NCBI GenBank assembly: GCA_945892755.1
Contig: CAMDDO010000004.1
Span: 67,099-116,542, forward strand
DNA length: 49,444 nucleotides
Direction of reading: 5' to 3'
Origin: Rhizobium sp. Q54
GTDB taxonomy: Bacteria; Pseudomonadota; Alphaproteobacteria; UBA828
The notes beneath the pieces were generated by a model. That model saw nothing but the letters and a program-made list of their open reading frames with translations. It did not search any database and had not been told where the DNA came from. Positions 20,496 through 34,702 of this stretch are shown piece by piece. The stretch's first letter is position 1. Every line of letters begins with the position of its first letter. The position numbers were made by a program, and so were the translations under genes.

Positions 20496-22814
20496 ATGTG
20501 GCCCGGGCCACGACGCTCAATAAGAGGGAACGGCAACGCGGCGGCGGACGACAGCGCGGCGGCGGATGGCGCGGCGGCGGCGGACGAAAGCGCGGCGGCC
20601 AATAACGGCAACGCGGCGGCGGACGACAGCGCGGCGGCGGATACCGCGGCGGCGGCGGACGACAGCGCGGCGACCGGCCTGGGCGACGCCAATGCCGGCA
20701 ATTCGGATGCGAATGGCTCGAACTCGGCGTCGACCAATATCGGCGACGCGACCTCGAACGAGCTCGACGCCGATGGCGATGCCTCGGCGGCGGCGCAGAA
20801 CGGCGATGCGATCGGCGGTGCCCATGCGAGCGGCGATTCGGCGGCGGCGGCCAATGGCAGCACGGCGCTGCGCTCGAGCGGCGACAGCGCGCTGTCCCAG
20901 ACCGGCGACGCGATCGGCGGCGACAACGATGACAGCGCGATTGCCGGCAGCGGCATCGCGGTCCGCGTTGGCAGCAACAATGACGGCACGGCCCTTTCGG
21001 GCAATGACGCCGTTGGCATGGACGGCTCGGACGACAACACGATCGCCCAGGGCGGCAGCAGCGCGATCGGCGATGACGCGGAAGGCTCGGCGATCGGCGC
21101 CGGCGCGGTCGGCATGGACGATTCGGACGACAACGCGATCGCGACGGGCGCGAGCACGGCGGTCCGCTTCGGCCAGAAGAGCGATGGCAATGCGGTCGGC
21201 GAGGGCAATGTCGCGAACGACGGCGATGACAGCGCGGTCGCGGGCGACGGCACGGCAATCCGCTTCGGCCAGAACTCGAACGGCAACAACCTCACCTCGG
21301 GCGCCGGCGCGGTCGGCATCGACGAGGTCGATGAGGGCAGTGCGGTCGCGGTCGGCGGCGGCGACGCGGCCGGGGCCGAGGACAATGACGACAGCGCGGT
21401 GGCGCAGAATGGCGGCACGGCGGTCCGTGGCGGCTCGGAGAGCGCGGTCAACAATGGCAGCGGCTCGGCCCAGCGCATGTCCGGCGGCAATGACGGCGCG
21501 GCCCAGACCGTGACCGGCAACGCCCAGGGCGTCGAAGGCGATGACGGCGTGGCGGCGACCCAGGGCGGCGGCGATGCCTATGGCATCGATGCCGACGACG
21601 ACAATGCGATCGCGGCCGGCGACGGCTCGAACGCCTCCAACATCGGCAACGATAATGACGGCACTGGCGTATCCCAGGGTTCGGGCGATGCCGCCGGCAA
21701 TGACTCGGGCGATGGCGTCGGCCAGAATGGCGGCGCGGGTGCGGAAGACGACAGCGCGGCGGCGGTGAACGGCGATGCCGGCAATGCCAGCGCGAAAGAT
21801 GACAGCGCGGCCGCCGGTATCGGCAACGCGGTCAATCTCGATCTCGACGACGGCTCGATCGGCCTGGCGGCCGGCGATGATTTGCTGAACGGCGGCGACG
21901 GCGCGATCATCCAGCTCTCGATGGTCTCGCTCAACAACGAAGTCAGCTACAGCCCGATCAAGATCAACACCGACCCGAGTATCGATAGCGGCGATAACGA
22001 CAATAGCGGCGGCGAGGGCGGTGACGGCGGGGACGTCGAGACCAAGTCGAAGGACAACTCGTTCAATAATGATGGCGATGAGTCCGGCGATATCGAGCAG
22101 GACGGCAACAAGGCGAAGTCCGGCTCGACCAATAGCGACACCGACGGCGGCGAAGGCGGCAGCGCCAATGGCAATGACGGCGTCGATGGCAATGGCAATG
22201 GCGACTCCGAGGGCGGCACGGCCAACGGCAATGACGGCGTCGATGGCAATAGCGGCGGCGACAGCACGGCGAACGGCAGTGGCAATTCGACCGGCGGTAA
22301 CGGCGGCGCGGGCGGCGGTGGCAATGGCGGAAACGGCGGCGCGGCCGCGTCGGACAACGACGCGACCAGCAATGCCGGCGGCGCGGGCAATGGCTCGGGC
22401 AGCGGCTCTGCCAATGGCGGCGCGGGCAGCTCCGATGGAACCGGCTCGGGCTCGGCCAATGGCGGGGCGGCGGATTCGGATGACGACAGCGGCGCGGCGA
22501 CGCAGACCTCGACCAATTCCGGCTCGACCGGCGCTGGCGGGGCGGGCGGCTCGGCCGACAACTCCAACAGCAACACCGGCTCGGCTGGGGCTGGCGGCAC
22601 GGCCAATGGCGGAACTTCGACCGAGACCAACACGATCAACAACACCAATGGCATCGCGACGGGTGCGATCGGTGCGCTGACGATGACCACGACGGGCGGC
22701 ATCAACACGATGCAGGTGTCGACCGGCATGCTCTCGAACCAGCAGGTCGCGGTGTCGATCAACGCCAACGCGTCCCAGGCCGGCTTCAACAACCTGCCGA
22801 CCGTGGGCCCGTGA
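20496..22814 (+). CDS. Repetitive Gly/Asn/Asp/Ala/Ser-rich protein, copy 1, N-terminally truncated
   Basis: A 772-residue low-complexity protein made of short degenerate units such as DDSAAA, NAVAxG, GGSSAIG and NGNDGVDG, with no Cys that I can see and few aromatics. It is a paralogue of the next gene. The similarity starts at residue 13 here and at residue 114 there, so this copy lacks the signal peptide and about 100 residues. The first 12 residues (MWPGPRRSIRGN) look like chance translation, and no convincing ribosome site precedes the ATG. Two perfect-length 25-residue units (75 bases each) start at 20532 and 20607. The C-terminus has an aliphatic/Asn patch (GGINTMQVSTGML, VAVSINANASQAGF). 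Either a 5'-truncated pseudogene-like duplicate, a recombination donor, or an assembly collapse in repeats. Function unknown; probably a secreted beta-rich structural protein when intact. Confidence 0.6.
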   Translation: MWPGPRRSIRGNGNAAADDSAAADGAAAADESAAANNGNAAADDSAAADTAAAADDSAATGLGDANAGNSDANGSNSASTNIGDATSNELDADGDASAAAQNGDAIGGAHASGDSAAAANGSTALRSSGDSALSQTGDAIGGDNDDSAIAGSGIAVRVGSNNDGTALSGNDAVGMDGSDDNTIAQGGSSAIGDDAEGSAIGAGAVGMDDSDDNAIATGASTAVRFGQKSDGNAVGEGNVANDGDDSAVAGDGTAIRFGQNSNGNNLTSGAGAVGIDEVDEGSAVAVGGGDAAGAEDNDDSAVAQNGGTAVRGGSESAVNNGSGSAQRMSGGNDGAAQTVTGNAQGVEGDDGVAATQGGGDAYGIDADDDNAIAAGDGSNASNIGNDNDGTGVSQGSGDAAGNDSGDGVGQNGGAGAEDDSAAAVNGDAGNASAKDDSAAAGIGNAVNLDLDDGSIGLAAGDDLLNGGDGAIIQLSMVSLNNEVSYSPIKINTDPSIDSGDNDNSGGEGGDGGDVETKSKDNSFNNDGDESGDIEQDGNKAKSGSTNSDTDGGEGGSANGNDGVDGNGNGDSEGGTANGNDGVDGNSGGDSTANGSGNSTGGNGGAGGGGNGGNGGAAASDNDATSNAGGAGNGSGSGSANGGAGSSDGTGSGSANGGAADSDDDSGAATQTSTNSGSTGAGGAGGSADNSNSNTGSAGAGGTANGGTSTETNTINNTNGIATGAIGALTMTTTGGINTMQVSTGMLSNQQVAVSINANASQAGFNNLPTVGP
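20532..20681 (+). repeat. Two 75-base tandem coding repeats in copy 1
   Basis: Units at 20532-20606 and 20607-20681 each encode a 25-residue segment starting GNAAADDSAAAD. The same pair occurs in copy 2 at 23257-23406. Confidence 0.8.
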
Positions 22815-22917: not shown

Positions 22918-25794
22918 ATGAACAGGATGTTCCTCACGGCGGTATCGGCGATCGCGCTGACCGCCGCTCTATCGGGAGCTGCCTACGCGCAGCAGACCAA
23001 CACGACCGGCGGCGGCAGCGACGTCAACGCGCAGGCGACCGATATTGGCAATGCGCAAGCGAATGACAACGATGTCGAGAGCAACAACGACAACAGCAAT
23101 CTTCAGGACAATTCCGACAAGAGCGTCAACCAGGACAACAGCTTGCTCAAGGACGCGACGATCGAAGTGCCGCTGAATATCGGCTCCGACGGCACGGCGG
23201 CCTCGACCGGCGGCGATGCCTCGGGCGCGCAGGACGACAGCGCGGCGGCCAATGGCGGCAACGCGGCGGCGGACGAGAGCGCGGCGGCCGATGGCGCGGC
23301 GGCGGCGGACGACAGCGCGGCCAGCAACCAAGGCAACGCGGCGTCGGACGATAGCGCGGCGGCCAGCACGGCGGCGGCGGCGGACGATTCGGCGGCGAGC
23401 GGCGCCGGCGATGCCAATGCCGGCAATGCCACGGCCGAAGGCGAGAATAGCGCGGCGAGCAATATCGGCAACGCGACCTCGACCGAGATCGACGCCGATG
23501 GCGATGCCTCGGCGGCCGCCTCGGGCAGCACCCCGGGCGGCGCACCGACCCCGGCGGATATCGGCGAGGGCTTCAGCGCCACCGCCGGCGCAGACGCGAG
23601 CGGCGATTCGGCGGCGGCGGCGAACAACAGCACCGCCCTGCGCTCGAGCGGCGATTCTGCCCTGTCGCAGAGCGGCGATGCGATCGGCGGCGACAATAAT
23701 GACAGCGCGATCGCCGGTGATGGCACGGCGGTGCGCGTCGGCAGCAGGAATGACGGCACGGCCATTTCCGGCAACGACGCGATCGCTCTTTCTGGCAGCA
23801 ACTATCACCACCAGTTTGGCGAAGGCGGCCAGAATAGTCTCGATGGGCCGGAAGGCGGCGGCGGCTCGGACCACAACACGATCGCGCAAGGCGGCAGCAG
23901 CGCGATCGGCAACGAAGCCAACGGCTCGGCGATCGGCGACGGCGCGCTCGGCATGAGCGACTCGGACGAGAACGCGATCGCTACGGGCGCGAGCGGCGCG
24001 GTGCGCTTCGGCCAAAAGAGCGATGGCAACGCGGTCGGCGTGGGCAACACGGCCAATGACGGCGGCGACAGCGCGGTGGCGGGCGCCGGCACGGCGGTTC
24101 GCTTCGGCTCGGAGTCCGACGGCAACAACGTGACCACGGGCGCCCAGGCGATCGGCATCGACGAGGTCGAAGACGGCAGCGCGGTCGCGATCAACAGCCC
24201 AGGCGGTGAGGTCGACCCGCAGGGGCTCGGCGGCGGCAATGCCTCGGGTGCCGAGGACAACGACGACAGCGCGGTGGCGCAGGGCGAAGGCAGCACGGCG
24301 GTCCGTGGCGGCCGGGAGAGCGCGATCAATAATGGCGACGGCTCGGCCCAGCGCATGGGCGGCGGCAATGACGGTGCGGCGCAGGCCGTGAACGGCAATG
24401 CCCAGGCCGTCGAAGGCGATGACGGCGTGGCGGCGACCCAGGGCGGCGGCGATGCCTATGGCATCAATGCCGACGACGGCAACGCGGTCGCGGCCGGCGG
24501 AGGGTCGAACGCTTCCAACATCGCCGCGGGCGGTAAACGACATCACGGGCAGGTCGGCGACGTTACCGGCCTGGGCTCGGAGGGCGGCGGCAATGACGGC
24601 GTCGCGGTCTCGCAGGGCAGCGGCGACGCGGCGGGCAATGACGAAGGCGATGGCGTCGGCCAGAATGGCGGCGCCGGTGCCAGCAATGACAGCGCGGCGG
24701 CTGCCGGCGGCGATGCCGGCAATGCCGGAGCGAAGGATGAGAGCGCGGCGGCCGGTATCGGCAACGCGGTCAATGTCGACGCCGACGACGGCTCGTTCAG
24801 TCCGGCCGCCGGTGGCGACCTGATGAACGATGGAGGCCCGCTGGCCGATCATAACAACGTCATCCAGCTCTCGGCGGTCGCGCTCGGCAATGAGGTGTCC
24901 GACAGCCCGATCAAGATCAACAGCGATCCGAGTATCTCCAGCGGCGAGAACCACAATCACGGCGGCCGCGGCGGGAACGGCGGCGACGTCGAGACCAAGT
25001 CCAAGAACAATGACTTCAACAACGAGGGCGACGATTCGGGCGATATCGAGCAGGACAACAACAGGGCCCGCTCGGGTTCGACCGAGAGCGACACCCAAGG
25101 CGGCAAAGGCGGCAGCGCCAATCGCAATGACGGCGTCGACGGCAATGGCAATGGCGAGTCCGAAGGCGGCACGGCCAATTCCAATGACGGCGTCGATGGC
25201 GATAGCGGCGGCGACAGCGCGGCCGATGCCGGCGGCAATTCGACGGGTGGCGACGGTGGCGCGGGCGGTGCGCCCGGTACCACTGGCGGCACCGGTGGGG
25301 ACGCCGATTCGACGAACACGGCGCAGTCCGCCAAGGCCGGTGACGGCAATGGCAGCGGCAAGGGCACGGCCGATGCCGGCGAAGCCGGGTCCGACGGCGA
25401 AGGCAAGGGCGAGGCCAATGGCGGCAAAGCCAAGTCCGATGACGACAGCGGCGACGCCACCCAGAAGTCGGAGAACGCGGATACCGGCGATACCGGGAAT
25501 GGCGGAAACGGCGGAACGGCCGACAACACCAACACCAATGGTGGCAATGCCGGGGCCGGCGGCAACGCCAATGGCGGCATCTCGAACGAGGACAACGATA
25601 TCCTGAACGAGAACGTGATCGGGACGGCCGACATCGGCGCGTTGAAGATGCTCACCGTCGGTGGCATCAACAACATGCAGATCTTGACCAGCCAGATGGT
25701 CTCGCAGGAGATCGCGGTTTCGATCAACGCGAACGCGGCGCAGGCCGGGTTCAACGGCGGCGGCACGATCGTCACCCCGCCGAGCCCGTTCTGA
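22918..25794 (+). CDS. Secreted repetitive Gly/Asn/Asp/Ala/Ser-rich protein, copy 2, intact
   Basis: A 958-residue exported protein. Residues 1-24 are a clear Sec signal (MNRMFLTAVSAIALTAALSG, cleavage AYA-QQ). The mature protein is a long series of short Gly/Asn/Asp/Ser/Ala units with regularly spaced small hydrophobics (for example SAIAGDGTAVRVGS, GNAVGVGNTAND), a pattern expected of a beta-solenoid or amyloid-like stack. Relative to copy 1 it has four inserted Gly/Pro/His-rich loops, at about 23521-23598, 23800-23875, 24193-24237 and 24523-24593, all at unit borders. The C-terminus (about 40 residues) loses the Gly/Asn units and ends in an aliphatic stretch (GGINNMQILTSQMVSQEIAV, then SINANAAQAGF). 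Ribosome site GGGAGCGAG lies eight bases before the ATG. I know no named family; neighbours suggest a surface fibre subunit. Confidence 0.8.
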   Translation: MNRMFLTAVSAIALTAALSGAAYAQQTNTTGGGSDVNAQATDIGNAQANDNDVESNNDNSNLQDNSDKSVNQDNSLLKDATIEVPLNIGSDGTAASTGGDASGAQDDSAAANGGNAAADESAAADGAAAADDSAASNQGNAASDDSAAASTAAAADDSAASGAGDANAGNATAEGENSAASNIGNATSTEIDADGDASAAASGSTPGGAPTPADIGEGFSATAGADASGDSAAAANNSTALRSSGDSALSQSGDAIGGDNNDSAIAGDGTAVRVGSRNDGTAISGNDAIALSGSNYHHQFGEGGQNSLDGPEGGGGSDHNTIAQGGSSAIGNEANGSAIGDGALGMSDSDENAIATGASGAVRFGQKSDGNAVGVGNTANDGGDSAVAGAGTAVRFGSESDGNNVTTGAQAIGIDEVEDGSAVAINSPGGEVDPQGLGGGNASGAEDNDDSAVAQGEGSTAVRGGRESAINNGDGSAQRMGGGNDGAAQAVNGNAQAVEGDDGVAATQGGGDAYGINADDGNAVAAGGGSNASNIAAGGKRHHGQVGDVTGLGSEGGGNDGVAVSQGSGDAAGNDEGDGVGQNGGAGASNDSAAAAGGDAGNAGAKDESAAAGIGNAVNVDADDGSFSPAAGGDLMNDGGPLADHNNVIQLSAVALGNEVSDSPIKINSDPSISSGENHNHGGRGGNGGDVETKSKNNDFNNEGDDSGDIEQDNNRARSGSTESDTQGGKGGSANRNDGVDGNGNGESEGGTANSNDGVDGDSGGDSAADAGGNSTGGDGGAGGAPGTTGGTGGDADSTNTAQSAKAGDGNGSGKGTADAGEAGSDGEGKGEANGGKAKSDDDSGDATQKSENADTGDTGNGGNGGTADNTNTNGGNAGAGGNANGGISNEDNDILNENVIGTADIGALKMLTVGGINNMQILTSQMVSQEIAVSINANAAQAGFNGGGTIVTPPSPF
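23257..23406 (+). repeat. Two 75-base tandem coding repeats in copy 2
   Basis: Units at 23257-23331 and 23332-23406, encoding GNAAADESAAADGAAAADDS-type and GNAASDDSAAASTAAAADDS-type segments. They match the pair in copy 1 and fix the alignment of the two genes. Confidence 0.8.
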
Positions 25795-25940: not shown

Positions 25941-26348
25941 ATGAAGACCATTCTCATGGCGGCGGCGGCGCTTTCTTTCCTTGCGGTTACGGCCTACGCA
26001 GTCCAATCGAAGGCGGCGGATGGCGGCGGGCTTGGCGTGGCGGCACCGGTCGAGGCCGATCTGATGGACGTCCTGGTGCAGGAGGATGGCGTTGGCGACG
26101 ACGTGCTTGAGAGCCTGGCGGGCCGCGAGCTGATCGAGCCCGACGAATTGACTCAGATCGCCGCGCCGACCAACAACAACACCTCGACCAACGAGATCGA
26201 ATTGAACGGCGAAGGCTCGTCGCTGGTCACCGGCTTCGTCGCCGGCAATCAGGCCAATAGCGGCGGCATCAACAACCAGATGATCAATTCCGGCAATGGC
26301 GTGAATTTCCAGAACAGCACGGTGATCCAGATCATCGTGGGGGAATGA
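25941..26348 (+). CDS. Small exported Asn-rich protein
   Basis: A 135-residue protein with a Sec signal (MKTILMAAAALSFLAVTAYA, cleavage near AYA-VQ). The mature protein has an acidic stretch (about 38-72, rich in Asp, Glu, Leu) and then a Thr/Asn-rich, strand-like tail from about residue 76: NNNTSTNEIELNGEGSSLV, VAGNQANSGGINNQMINSGN, FQNSTVIQIIVGE. The GGINNQM segment closely resembles GGINNMQ at the end of repetitive copy 2. It could be a minor subunit, nucleator or chaperone of the repetitive proteins. No family recognised. Stop is 37 bases before the C39 peptidase gene. Confidence 0.75.
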   Translation: MKTILMAAAALSFLAVTAYAVQSKAADGGGLGVAAPVEADLMDVLVQEDGVGDDVLESLAGRELIEPDELTQIAAPTNNNTSTNEIELNGEGSSLVTGFVAGNQANSGGINNQMINSGNGVNFQNSTVIQIIVGE

Positions 26349-26385: not shown

Positions 26386-27102
26386 ATGGCACTGCTCCGT
26401 CCGTTCGTGCTGGCGGGCCTCGGGCTCGCGCTTGCAATCGCCGCCTGGGGCGTCGCGCCGAGCGGCATGGCCGGCGAGGTCTCGCTCTTCACCGGCGTCG
26501 GCGGCCGCGTCTCGGTGCCGACCGTCAGCATCCGGGAAGGCCGCTTCCAGACCGTCGTCCTGCAGCAATACGACTTCAGCTGCGGCTCGGCCGCGCTGGC
26601 GACGCTTCTGACCTTTCATTACAAGCGGCCGACCACCGAGGCCGATGTCTTCCTCCAGATGTTCAACACGGGCGACCAGGCCAAGATCCAGAAGCTCGGC
26701 TTCTCGCTGCTCGACATGAAGCGCTATCTGGAATCCCGCAAGCTGCGCGCCGACGGCTTCAAGATGGAGTTCGACAAGCTGGCCAAGATCGGCGCGCCGG
26801 CGATCACGCTGGTCAATATCAACGGCTACAATCATTTCGTGGTGTTCAAGGGCTATGAGAACGGCGACGTGGTGGTGGGCGACCCGGCGCTCGGCGTGCG
26901 GGTCTATACGGCGGAAGAGTTCCAGAAAATCTGGAACGGCGTCGCCTTCCTGATCCGCAGCGAGCCGGCGGTCGGGCGCGCGAATTTCAATCTCGATCGC
27001 GATTGGCGGGTGCGGCGCAAGGCGCCGTTCGCGACCGCGATCAGCCGGGATTCGCTGGCCTCGTTCACCGCGCAATTGCCCTTCGCCGCGAACGAATTCT
27101 AG
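26386..27102 (+). CDS. Exported C39-family cysteine peptidase (FapD-like)
   Basis: A 238-residue papain-fold peptidase. An N-terminal hydrophobic segment (FVLAGLGLALAIAAWGVA) indicates export or anchoring at the periplasmic face. The catalytic set is visible: Gln60/61 (oxyanion) and Cys66 in QQYDFSCGSAALATLLTFHY, His150 in INGYNHFVVFKG, Asp166 in VVVGDPALG. Family C39 peptidases cut after Gly-Gly in leader sequences. Most are fused to ABC exporters, but stand-alone exported ones exist, for example FapD of the Pseudomonas Fap amyloid operon. There is no ABC domain here. The two proteins encoded immediately downstream each carry a double-glycine motif, so they are the likely substrates. The start ATG at 26386 follows gggtaggcgggagccgggc. 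Confidence 0.88.
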   Translation: MALLRPFVLAGLGLALAIAAWGVAPSGMAGEVSLFTGVGGRVSVPTVSIREGRFQTVVLQQYDFSCGSAALATLLTFHYKRPTTEADVFLQMFNTGDQAKIQKLGFSLLDMKRYLESRKLRADGFKMEFDKLAKIGAPAITLVNINGYNHFVVFKGYENGDVVVGDPALGVRVYTAEEFQKIWNGVAFLIRSEPAVGRANFNLDRDWRVRRKAPFATAISRDSLASFTAQLPFAANEF

Positions 27103-27113
27103 GGGATAGGACC

Positions 27114-28469
27114 ATGGCAACCAAACCGAGAGACGAGACTTGGCAAGCCGCGCCGTCAGGCGGCGCGTGGCTCAGGCGCGCGGCGCTTCGGGGCGCGGTG
27201 TGCGGCACGGCGGTGGCGGTCGCGGTCGGCGCCATGGCGCCGGCGATCGCCGCGGTCGGCATGGACGAGCGTGGTCTCGACGTGCTGGGCGCGAGCCCGA
27301 TGTCGCGCGGCGAGCTCGACGAGAACCGGGGCGGCTTTTCGCTCGGCGCCTTCAAGATCAATATCGGCGTCAAGATCACCACGACGCTCAACAACGCCGT
27401 GACGCTCCAATCGGTGCTGACCTACAACACCAAGACCAAGATCGCCGAGATGACGTCGAACGTCTCCAAGGCGGTGGCGAAGATCGGCGATGATGACGAC
27501 GACGACGCCTCGACGAGCTCGAACCAGGCCGGCGCGGTCAGCTTCTCCCTGCCGCAATTCAAGCTTTCGAGCCAGAGCGCGCAATTCGAGGCCGACGATC
27601 TGGACAGTGATGACGACGATGACGCGGTGAGTCCGAGCGTGCAGGGCGAGACGGCGGCGCCCAGCAACCCGCCGCCGGTCGTGGTGGCGGAGCTCGAGGA
27701 GCCGGTCGGCGCGGTCGTGCCGAGCGCGACCGAGCCGAGCGACACCGGCAATTCCGGGAACGCTTCGATTGGCGCGCAGGCGATCGGCGAGATCGTCGAG
27801 GTCGCGGATGCCGCGCCGGCGAGCCCGCCAAGCGGGCCCAAGATCAATCTCGACCCGATCATCGATCAGGTCACGCAAGTGGTCGACGCGATCATCGTCG
27901 AGCCGCCAAGTCTGCCGGCGCTCGAGGACGCGACCCAGGTGGTCGACGCGCTGATCATCGAGCCGCCGGTGCTGCCCGATGCCGGCGGCATCGTCGAAGA
28001 GCTCACGCCGGTGGTCGGCACCGTGGAGATCGAGTCGCCGAGCCCGCCGGTCATCGTGCCGGCGGCCGAGCCGCTCGTGATCGATACCGAAAGCATGGCG
28101 GCGCTGGCGGAAATCGTGAGCGAGGCCGGCGCGCCGGGCGAGCTCGAGCCCGCGGCTCAGGCCCAGGACCCAAGCGGCGAGCAGGAGCTCGCGCTCAACG
28201 ATGCCGAGGTTCTGCCCGAAGTGCTGATGACGGCGCTCAGCGGCGGCACCAAGTTCACCTCCGGCGAGACCGAGGTCACGCACCTGATCCAGAACGGCAT
28301 CATGGCCTCGATCCAGAACTCGGCGAACGGCATGACGATCGATCAGAGCGTCGAGATGAGCGTCAGCATCAGCAACTTCAATTCGCTTATCCAGGGTGCG
28401 CTTTCGGACATGAAGGCCAACATGATGAGCACCGAAGTCGCGCGCTTCAACTCATCGCTCGGCAATTGA
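27114..28469 (+). CDS. Exported protein with double-glycine motif, paralogue 1
   Basis: A 451-residue protein starting at the ATG 27114, preceded by aggggatagg; the upstream open frame belongs to the peptidase gene. A long signal/anchor region spans residues 20-47 (LRRAALRGAVCGTAVAVAVG and on). Residues 63-74 are MSRGELDENRGG, which fits the C39 leader rule (M/L)SxxELxxxxGG. After the cut would come FSLGAFKINIGVKITTTLNN, an alternating strand pattern. The centre is acidic (DDDD runs near residues 125 and 165) and then Pro/Glu/Val-rich with two 20-residue units starting TQVVDA (27871 and 27931). The last 70 residues (VTHLIQNGIMASIQNSANGM through VARFNSSLGN) are conserved in the next gene. Function unknown; presumably a processed subunit or assembly factor. 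Confidence 0.78.
   Translation: MATKPRDETWQAAPSGGAWLRRAALRGAVCGTAVAVAVGAMAPAIAAVGMDERGLDVLGASPMSRGELDENRGGFSLGAFKINIGVKITTTLNNAVTLQSVLTYNTKTKIAEMTSNVSKAVAKIGDDDDDDASTSSNQAGAVSFSLPQFKLSSQSAQFEADDLDSDDDDDAVSPSVQGETAAPSNPPPVVVAELEEPVGAVVPSATEPSDTGNSGNASIGAQAIGEIVEVADAAPASPPSGPKINLDPIIDQVTQVVDAIIVEPPSLPALEDATQVVDALIIEPPVLPDAGGIVEELTPVVGTVEIESPSPPVIVPAAEPLVIDTESMAALAEIVSEAGAPGELEPAAQAQDPSGEQELALNDAEVLPEVLMTALSGGTKFTSGETEVTHLIQNGIMASIQNSANGMTIDQSVEMSVSISNFNSLIQGALSDMKANMMSTEVARFNSSLGN
27868..27990 (+). repeat. Two 60-base direct coding repeats
   Basis: Units near 27871 and 27931 encode TQVVDAIIVEPPSLPALEDA and TQVVDALIIEPPVLPDAGGI. They form part of the Pro/Glu/Val linker. Confidence 0.6.
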
Positions 28470-28476
28470 GTTCGCA

Positions 28477-28514
28477 CCAGGTCTCGAGGATCGGTTCCGA
28501 TCGTCGAGACCTGG
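28477..28514 (+). terminator. 18-bp hairpin after paralogue 1
   Basis: CCAGGTCTCGAGGATCGG, loop TT, CCGATCGTCGAGACCTGG with a single mismatch. It starts eight bases after the stop. A related hairpin follows paralogue 2 at 30073, so the terminator was duplicated with the gene. Confidence 0.65.
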
Positions 28515-28762
28515 CCGCAGAACGGCCCCGTCTCACATTATTGATCGTCCCCTGCGGTTGTGCCCGCGCGTCGGTCGAGCCGCGCGGGTGACGGCCGAGC
28601 ACGCGGCTCGCTCGAACGCGTTTGTCGCGCTGCCAATACGTCTTGTCACAGATTAATAGTTAGAGTTTCTCACCAATTTGGCTCGCGCGCCGCGTTTCGC
28701 CCAATTCGCGACACAATCGGTCCTCAAAGTCCGCCCCAACAATCAATGAAGGGGACGGGGAC

Positions 28763-30070
28763 ATGAGCGCACCTACCGATCGCGACACGGCAACGGGGCG
28801 AACCTCTCAAACCCAGACTGCATTACGGATGGCGCGAGCCTCGCGCCCGATGCGCCGGGGCGCCATCAGCCTCGGCGCGGTCGCAATCGCGCTCGGCATC
28901 GCAGCGCCCGGCTCGTTCGCCGCGGTCGCGCCCACCGAGCTCGACGTCGGTGACGCCGTGCTGATGTCGCGAGACGAATTGGACGGCGCGCGCGGCGGCT
29001 TTTCGGTCGGCACCTTCAATCTCAGTTTCGGCATCAAGATTTCGACCACGATCAACAATGTGCTGACGGTCCAGACCGTGCTGTCGATCGATTCATCGAC
29101 GCTCACCGGCAAGATCACAACGAGCACGACCGCGATCGCGCAAAAGGTCAATGAGACGGTAGACAAGGTCACCGCGACGGTGGCGGCGATCGGCGATAAG
29201 GAAGAGGGCGCGGCAACGAGCGCGAGCACGACCCTGATCGCTTCGGTCGAGCAGCCCCCGGTCGAGCAGCCCGAGAGCGAAAACAGCGAGGTGGCCGCCA
29301 CGCCCAGCGGCGCCGACGGCGAAAGCGTGGTGAGCCAGGCCGGCCCCTCGACGCCTGAGAGTTTCAGCGTCGAGACCGCGCCGAGCAGCGCCAGCGAGCC
29401 GCCGGCGCCCGCGCCGAGCGCCGCGCCCGAGCAGGTGGCCAGCCTCAGCATCACCGTGCCGACGACACCCGAGAGCTTGGGCGCGTCCGACGCCGCAACC
29501 ATCACGATCCCCGACGCGGCCGGGCTCGTGAGCGAAGTTCAGGAGCAGGTCACGCATTCGGAGATCGGCGATTTCCTGCCGAGTCAGACCGAGCCGATCA
29601 GCGTGGTCGAGGCGCCGTTGCAGATCGAGGTCGAGAGCTTGAGCGCGGCGCAGAACCTGGCGCAGACGCCGAGCTTCGAAGCGCCGCCGGTGAGCGAAAC
29701 CATCGTGCTGGCAAGCAACGAGATCACGACCGAAAGCGTCGAGAACACGCCGAGCGGCGAGGTTTTGTCGAACCTCGAGGCCGATCAGGCGACCGGCACT
29801 GGCGTCGTCGGCGAAGCGGGCGCGACCGTGACCGAGATCCCGAACGGCGCGGTCTTCGATCTGGGCGGCACCGTCATCACCCATCAGATCCTGAACGGCA
29901 TTCTCGCCAGCATCCAGAACAGCAACAACGACGTGCAGATCGACCAGACGGTCGAAATGATGGTCGACATCGAGAATTTCGGCTCGACCATCGGCAGCGC
30001 GCAGTCCACGCGCCAAGCTGCCGCGCTGGGTGACGAGGTCGCGCGCTTCAGCTCCAGCCTCGGCGACTAG
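28763..30070 (+). CDS. Exported protein with double-glycine motif, paralogue 2
   Basis: A 435-residue paralogue of the previous gene. Signal/anchor region at about residues 30-53 (RRGAISLGAVAIALGIAAPG, then SFAAVA). MSRDELDGARGG near residues 69-80 again matches the C39 leader pattern, followed by FSVGTFNLSFGIKISTTINN. The centre is Ser/Glu/Pro/Val-rich and disordered-looking, different in detail from paralogue 1. The C-terminal 70 residues are conserved (VITHQILNGILASIQNSNND, DQTVEMMVDIENF, EVARFSSSLGD). ATG 28763 is preceded by GAAGGGGACGGGGAC. A 293-base gap with an AT-rich stretch (28650-28680) separates the paralogues, so this gene may have its own promoter. Function unknown; probable substrate of the C39 peptidase. 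Confidence 0.78.
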   Translation: MSAPTDRDTATGRTSQTQTALRMARASRPMRRGAISLGAVAIALGIAAPGSFAAVAPTELDVGDAVLMSRDELDGARGGFSVGTFNLSFGIKISTTINNVLTVQTVLSIDSSTLTGKITTSTTAIAQKVNETVDKVTATVAAIGDKEEGAATSASTTLIASVEQPPVEQPESENSEVAATPSGADGESVVSQAGPSTPESFSVETAPSSASEPPAPAPSAAPEQVASLSITVPTTPESLGASDAATITIPDAAGLVSEVQEQVTHSEIGDFLPSQTEPISVVEAPLQIEVESLSAAQNLAQTPSFEAPPVSETIVLASNEITTESVENTPSGEVLSNLEADQATGTGVVGEAGATVTEIPNGAVFDLGGTVITHQILNGILASIQNSNNDVQIDQTVEMMVDIENFGSTIGSAQSTRQAAALGDEVARFSSSLGD

Positions 30071-33840: not shown

Positions 33841-34290
33841 GTGGTGCATCATCTCGCGCGCCTCCGCGCCGATCGCGCCGGCAACGCCGCGATCGAGTTC
33901 GCGCTGATCCTGCCACTGACCGTGCTGATGGTGGCCGGGCTGATCGAATATGGGCTGGTCACCAACGCGCGCACCTCGCTCGAGAACGGCGCGCGTGCCG
34001 GCGCCCAATTCGCGCTGTTCCAGGGCTTCGATGAAGCGGCCATCACGGCCACCGTGGTCGCCGCGACCAACCTCGCGCTGAGCGCGCCGAACGTCGCCGC
34101 CGAGGAGTTCTATGAGTGCGACGGCGCCTGGGGCACCGAGGTGCCGGCAGACACCGAATGCGACGACGGCGCGCCGCTCGCCAAGTTCGTCGGCGTCACC
34201 GCGACCATGGACTACGCGCCGTTCTTTCCGCTGATCGAGCTCGCCTTGCCGAGCGAGCTGGTCGGCTCGGCCGCCGTCAGGGTGCCGTGA
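33841..34290 (+). CDS. TadE-like pseudopilin-family protein 1
   Basis: A 149-residue protein with GTG start at 33841, eleven bases after the TadG-like gene and preceded by gggcgggaggtc. N-terminal motif RADRAGNAAIEFALILPLTV is the TadE signature: a Glu at position +5 of the hydrophobic segment, like type IV prepilins (cleavage after Gly expected by TadV/prepilin peptidase). The rest is a periplasmic domain with a few Cys. Likely a minor pseudopilin of a Tad apparatus encoded elsewhere. Confidence 0.85.
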   Translation: MVHHLARLRADRAGNAAIEFALILPLTVLMVAGLIEYGLVTNARTSLENGARAGAQFALFQGFDEAAITATVVAATNLALSAPNVAAEEFYECDGAWGTEVPADTECDDGAPLAKFVGVTATMDYAPFFPLIELALPSELVGSAAVRVP

Positions 34291-34291
34291 C

Positions 34292-34702
34292 ATGAGCGCG
34301 TTGAGCACGATGCTCCGGCGCTTGATACGGCGTAGCGATGGCGTCGCCGCGATCGAGTTCGCCATCATCCTGCCGGTGATGGCGGCGCTGATGGGCGGCA
34401 TTTTCGAGGGCGGCCGCTTGATGTGGGTGCGCAACTCGATCCAATCCGCGACCGAGCAGGCGGTCCGCCTCGCCATGGTCAATCCGGCGGCGACCGACCT
34501 CGAGCTCGAGGCGGAGGCGAGCGACTATTTCGACGGCATCGGCGGCGGCTCGCCGAGCTTTTCGGTCGCGCGCGACACCGTGGACGCGGTCGATTTCGTG
34601 ACCGTGAACGGCAGCTACGAGTTCCAGTCGATCCTGAGCCTGGTCGATTTCGGCCTCGTCACGCTGCGTGGCAAGGCGCGCGTGCCGCTCGAGACGCTGT
34701 GA
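34292..34702 (+). CDS. TadE-like pseudopilin-family protein 2
   Basis: A 136-residue protein, ATG one base after the previous stop. Motif RSDGVAAIEFAIILPVMAAL again matches the TadE prepilin-like segment; then RNSIQSATEQAVRLAMVNPA and a short periplasmic domain. Tandem TadE-like genes behind TadG are common. Same predicted operon as the two upstream genes. Confidence 0.85.
   Translation: MSALSTMLRRLIRRSDGVAAIEFAIILPVMAALMGGIFEGGRLMWVRNSIQSATEQAVRLAMVNPAATDLELEAEASDYFDGIGGGSPSFSVARDTVDAVDFVTVNGSYEFQSILSLVDFGLVTLRGKARVPLETL

Follow-up and report, generated by a model that had tools for sequence, protein, structure and literature searches.

Within the cell, the double-glycine cleavage signal ordinarily serves bacteriocin exporters. 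In PCAT1, LahT and ComA the exporter itself contains the C39 peptidase as a cytosolic domain, and export is signalled by the leader, the substrates of PCAT1 and LahT following the consensus L(−12)xxxE(−8)L(−7)xxxxGG (PMC6959990, PMC6363468). In canonical C39 enzymes leader positions −12, −7 and −4 are held in a hydrophobic groove, with a two-turn helix between the bound positions, and a narrow cleft accommodates the Gly pair (PMC6363468, PMC6959990). A C39 peptidase at work in another compartment is known from the Fap system: FapD acts in the periplasm and requires its active-site Cys, and with FapD C38A the secretion of FapC is lost (PMC5557850). The same 2017 paper reported that canonical C39 sequences are absent from Fap proteins and that in whole-cell mass spectrometry FapE, alone among them, was without N-terminal peptides (PMC5557850). 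A 2018 review described the FapD substrate as yet to be determined (PMC6173800), and by 2025 FapE and FapF were thought to be processed by FapD (PMC12822426). A literature search, which missed most subscription journals, found no description of the leader reported here. A second system with an exported C39 peptidase (FilB) is Fil.

We analysed a stretch of 49,444 nucleotides from Rhizobium sp. Q54 (the window), in which a FapD-like exported C39 cysteine peptidase of 238 aa is encoded at 26386-27102, on the + strand like the other parts of the cluster given below. Directly 5′ of it lies the gene for an exported protein of 135 aa (25941-26348), a third candidate substrate. On the other side are two exported FapE-position proteins, copy 1 of 451 aa (27114-28469, ATG at 27114) and copy 2 of 435 aa (28763-30070), each with a signal peptide and a leader. 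The two copies are 36% identical, and an HMM of the mature downstream proteins from other loci matches them at 1.5e-17 (451 aa) and 7.9e-13 (435 aa). Ahead of these genes, an exported repeat protein of 958 aa (22918-25794), rich in Gly, Ala, Asp, Asn and Ser and furnished with a signal peptide, is likely the fibre-like subunit of the cluster; repeat-rich exported proteins occupy the equivalent place in other loci. A three-frame read upstream of a second, 772-aa copy of the repeat protein (20496-22814) revealed an in-frame stop just 5′ of it and no in-frame signal peptide, so this copy looks 5′-truncated or broken. Only the peptidase is given a name by Pfam or NCBIfam; the 451-aa protein belongs to no family of either collection, and the 135-aa protein's hit to a Pfam factor H binding domain (E 0.008) was far under the cut-off and was disregarded. 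Elsewhere in the window (33841-34702) two short proteins resemble, by eye only, TadE-type pilus assembly proteins.

The peptidase has the family C39 fold. It matches Pfam Peptidase_C39 (PF03412) at 5e-21, its AlphaFold2 model (pLDDT 88) is matched by Foldseek to the peptidase domains of PCAT1, ComA and LahT, and it has the same catalytic residues as these enzymes: none of Q60, C66, H150 and D166 varies among 49 relatives. It is a stand-alone protein with its own signal peptide, not fused to an ABC exporter; the sequence-only reading was right to place its leader motifs beside an exported C39 peptidase. Scores against the curated models of exported C39 peptidases fall well short, with 154.1 bits (3.3e-45) for NCBIfam C39_FapD against a cut-off of 330, and 129 bits (2e-37) for pilus_FilB against a cut-off of 475. 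No close homologue was found in 21 other genomes of the order, so the peptidase is patchily distributed.

Copy 1 carries the double-glycine leader MSRGELDENRGG, followed by F, at 27300-27335 (residues 63-74), exactly as had been read directly from the sequence. The leader of copy 2, MSRDELDGARGG, again followed by F, lies at 28964-28999 (residues 68-79); the sequence-only reading had recognised this motif and its Phe correctly and had set it one codon off, at 28967-29002. Both have M at −12, E at −8, L at −7 and G at −2 and −1, in keeping with the double-glycine consensus L(−12)xxxE(−8)L(−7)xxxxG(−2)G(−1), and the predicted cuts fall before F75 in the 451-aa protein and before F80 in the 435-aa protein. 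On a 12-position profile built solely from downstream leaders, those of the window left out, the two motifs score 19.2 and 20.7, against a 99th percentile of 9.3 in 1,826 control signal-peptide ORFs. Position −4, where known C39 enzymes favour a hydrophobic residue, is occupied by N and A in the two window leaders; of 73 downstream homologues, 55 have L, M, I or V there. In the structural model of the 435-aa protein, which has a mean pLDDT of 53 and was used only for the helix before the Gly pair, a short helix is predicted with low confidence at residues 70-76 inside the leader, followed by the Gly pair and a first strand at 85. A third, degenerate candidate, VGDDVLESLAGR, with GR rather than GG, emerged from a pattern-free alignment in the 135-aa protein (26091-26126); its score of 9.75 is just over the control 99th percentile of 9.33. 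The sequence-only reading had passed over this upstream leader, the occurrence of R or K at −1 and the precedent of FapD as an exported C39 enzyme.

Both window motifs sit behind a hydrophobic segment of the kind seen in Sec-type signal peptides. Signal-peptidase sites of the AxA type, called with a home-made heuristic, would leave each leader within a propeptide of about 20-45 residues past the signal-peptidase cut, and since leader proteins and C39 peptidase alike are exported, cutting would be periplasmic, as had been proposed. The further suggestion that the hydrophobic segment is an uncleaved anchor from which C39 frees membrane-anchored precursors into the periplasm fits the N-regions ahead of that segment, which are unusually long in both window proteins (451 and 435 aa). 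We nevertheless consider it quite improbable, and do not favour membrane release, because by the same heuristic the segments look like cleavable Sec signals with AxA sites, shortly behind which the leaders of homologues begin. Moreover, a bona fide FapE, from a Pseudomonas fap operon in which FapA, FapC, FapE and FapF were confirmed over their NCBIfam cut-offs, reads AQA / QTFKPIELKDQELATLRGR / YVMPGR: its signal peptide is short and ordinary, the propeptide of 19 residues holds a canonical leader that closes on GR, and an aromatic residue comes next.

Conservation of the leader was assessed in 111 FapD-like exported C39 loci and 8 Fil-type loci. Their sources were the window, 12 stretches of genomes from its class, 80 named contigs (Alpha-, Beta- and Gammaproteobacteria and relatives of Geobacter) and 18 stretches of genomes that the FapD model had picked out. 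Scanning with a strict pattern placed a leader in a C39-adjacent gene at many loci, and a first GG-only regular expression gave candidates in 42 of the 80 named loci, of which some were chance matches; the shortfall is explained by GR, GK, GT and GA variants, by residues other than E at −8, and by the signal-peptide filter. So that no motif was imposed, the exported neighbours on each side of C39 were reduced to 70% identity and aligned pattern-free. Conservation among 73 non-redundant downstream proteins peaks at the block L/M-x3-R-G-[GRK]-[FY], with L/M at −7: L or M occurs in all 73, R in 71 and G in 69, position −1 is G, R or K in 72 (60, 8 and 4, respectively), and +1 is F or Y in 69 (56 and 13). 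At equal spacing, 71 upstream proteins show L/M-x3-R/S/T-G/A-x, with L or M in 71 of 71, R in 48 and G or A in 71, then R (28), G (19), K (10) or Q (6). The motif is conserved in homologues where the C39 gene is kept, as the sequence-only reading had required of a true leader; E at −8 and G at −1 vary, the latter giving way to R or K in some relatives.

A small exported protein lies 5′ of C39 in 81 of the 119 loci examined. On the downstream-trained profile, 58 of these 81 proteins exceed the 99th percentile of the 1,826 control ORFs (rank test p = 3e-49, which is optimistic since the set contains related sequences), and 68 lie above the 99th percentile of shuffled versions of themselves. Within 1 kb downstream of C39 and on the same strand, a leader with a score over 15 occurs in 103 of the 111 FapD-like loci and at none of 500 sites placed at random in control stretches, a comparison that needs no signal-peptide detection. 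As downstream proteins supplied the training set of the profile, this downstream count is in part built in, which is not so for the upstream count. With the threshold lowered to 9.33 and either side of C39 admitted, the figures are 109 of 111 loci and 23 of 500 placements. This tracking of the exported peptidase bears on another explanation, by which the leader is read in the cytoplasm by an ABC exporter with a C39 domain whose gene lies in another part of the genome. A second C39 domain does occur there, within a 785-aa ORF on contig 32, but that gene is unlinked to the cluster and the window proteins carry Sec signal peptides ahead of the leader, and we regard this explanation as highly improbable.

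The same linkage is seen from the side of the FapE-position family. Nine of 385 genomes of the class encode it (E ≤ 1e-6), all nine belong to the 21 genomes that have the C39 gene, and every copy in them adjoins that gene. In 16 FapE-position proteins with about 20% identity the R-G-G of the leader forms the only invariant columns, and the ten of them that were scanned have no Pfam or NCBIfam family. Conservation across homologues together with this linkage bears out the claim of a double-glycine leader placed behind a Sec signal and paired with an exported C39 peptidase. Two further arrangements were observed among the loci: the Halomonadaceae loci L083 and L061 have two exported C39 genes about 7 kb apart, each adjoining a leader-bearing protein, and L042-L049 represent a second exported C39 clade (RSLLEIRQxGVVVQKxDxSCG), whose neighbours gave few leader-like matches in the first pattern scans, apart from LSTAELDAIVAGG in L045.

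In the downstream class conservation continues past the supposed cut, with F/Y at +1 and then a conserved FG. This extension is what would be expected if the ELxxxRG[GRK][FY] block stayed uncut and had a structural or targeting role where the mature domain begins, for example in docking to the pore or to a chaperone-like C39, and inactive C39-like domains do serve as chaperones in HlyB-type exporters (PMC5557850, PMC6363468). Such a role without cleavage is unlikely, though less so than the two alternatives above. The Cys, His, Asp and Gln of the active site are invariant in the 49 C39 relatives, and loss of the FapD Cys abolishes FapC secretion (PMC5557850). The leader also recurs in the upstream class, where it lacks the +1 aromatic, and its conserved positions −12, −7 and −2 are among those read by canonical C39 enzymes (PMC6363468). 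In most loci the upstream and downstream proteins have a similar C-terminal stretch, xIQNxxxNxxI....V.V (in the window at about 28290-28380 and 29880-29990), which may perhaps be a shared secretion or assembly signal; because of this common motif the two classes are possibly distant relatives and not fully independent.

The closest likeness is to Fap. There, as here, an exported C39 peptidase is encoded between a repeat-rich exported protein and a leader-bearing exported protein, and in genomes whose C39 is over the FapD cut-off the FapE gene comes after the C39 gene. FapE of the confirmed Pseudomonas operon carries LKDQELATLRGR, followed by Y, with leader spacing equal to that of the window, and FapA in those operons carries LSDGDFASVASG, whose spacing also fits the leader. 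Similarity between FapE and the window class is limited to the leader and about 25 following residues, none being detectable beyond; hhalign gives 96% with the leader and 12% without it. The differences are that the window has two FapE-position copies and that the leaders of these copies end in GG, whereas those of Pseudomonas FapE end in GR or GK. Models of FapE, FapB, FapC and FapA have no match in the window, and the FapC/FapB-type repeat GNxGNx2AGx2NQQxN is absent from its repeat proteins. A FapF-like pore was not detected in the window's genome with model A2, built from an alignment of FapF-like barrels, which as a positive control found the pore in five of five related genomes that have the C39 gene; PF13557 is also absent from the window's genome. 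With no pore detected in this genome, the system of the window may be incomplete; FapF-like barrels are present in most other loci. Membership in Fap was rejected, as the peptidase is far under the FapD equivalog cut-off and the other parts are unmatched. By these curated tests (FapD cut-off, FapC/FapB repeats, FapF pore) the cluster is a variant of the Fap kind and not a member.

Some FapF-like pores also show a leader-like motif, placed between the coiled coil and the barrel (L034:6784-8181, L111, L118, L107, L097 and L112; for example LSDDELGEARGG), near where FapF cleavage had been suggested. As it occurs in a minority of loci only, we rejected it as a general feature of FapF.

Fil, the other system with an exported C39 peptidase, resembles the window in a second respect: FilA-like proteins (DUF6160) carry a leader-like MDDxxLxxVTGQ just past the signal peptide, and in L178, L179, L181 and L184 such proteins are encoded beside an exported FilB-like C39 gene. 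It differs in its subunit family, in having no R at −3 and in having Q at −1, and the trained profile scores the FilA-like leader weakly. Assignment of the window cluster to Fil was rejected, with its peptidase far under the pilus_FilB cut-off and no DUF6160 match in the window. The difference from PCAT1, LahT and ComA is one of compartment and partners, since in the window peptidase and substrates all carry Sec signal peptides, and the cluster has no ABC transporter next to them.

From the motifs, the signal peptides, the conserved active site, and the way in which leader and protease are conserved and linked in genomes, we infer a periplasmic maturation module of the Fap kind, in which Sec export would be followed by C39 cleavage of a short double-glycine propeptide; we put the probability of this reading at roughly three in four. 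Substrates would first be exported by Sec and then lose their signal peptide to signal peptidase. The remaining propeptide would end in the leader, with a hydrophobic residue at −12, E at −8, L or M at −7, a hydrophobic residue at −4, R at −3, G at −2 and G, R or K at −1. The periplasmic FapD-like C39 would bind this leader as a short helix and cut after G-[GRK], freeing the mature protein, presumably for passage through or assembly on the outer membrane. Binding, cleavage, cut position, order of steps and purpose are all proposed on that basis. In the window both FapE-position proteins would be substrates, as probably would the 135-aa protein encoded upstream. The main puzzle is tolerance of R or K at −1, a position where they are frequent (in FapE and many upstream proteins). 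Neither is expected to suit the narrow Gly-Gly cleft of known C39 enzymes, and the cut may therefore fall elsewhere; either the S1 site is wider in this clade or the cut is displaced.

Finally, we lean, by a narrow margin over even odds, towards a general periplasmic double-glycine pathway, separate from ABC exporters, that would serve Fap, Fil and a large uncurated Fap-like group. One exported C39 would trim several Sec-exported proteins, namely small upstream proteins, those of FapE type and, in some lineages (L034, L111, L118), the FapF pore at the junction of coiled coil and barrel, with R or K allowed at −1.

An exported C39 peptidase is itself of a known kind; what is new is the conserved, precisely placed leader in its neighbours, FapE included. 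Periplasmic cleavage is well supported as a reading of the sequences by conservation and linkage. Conserved across distant relatives in several bacterial classes, the leader names a probable FapE cut site, and the question of the FapD substrate becomes a one-peptide assay. If cleavage occurs as proposed, this would be, to our knowledge, the first double-glycine leader used after Sec export, and the leader offers a signature for substrates in clusters that have no Pfam or NCBIfam model.
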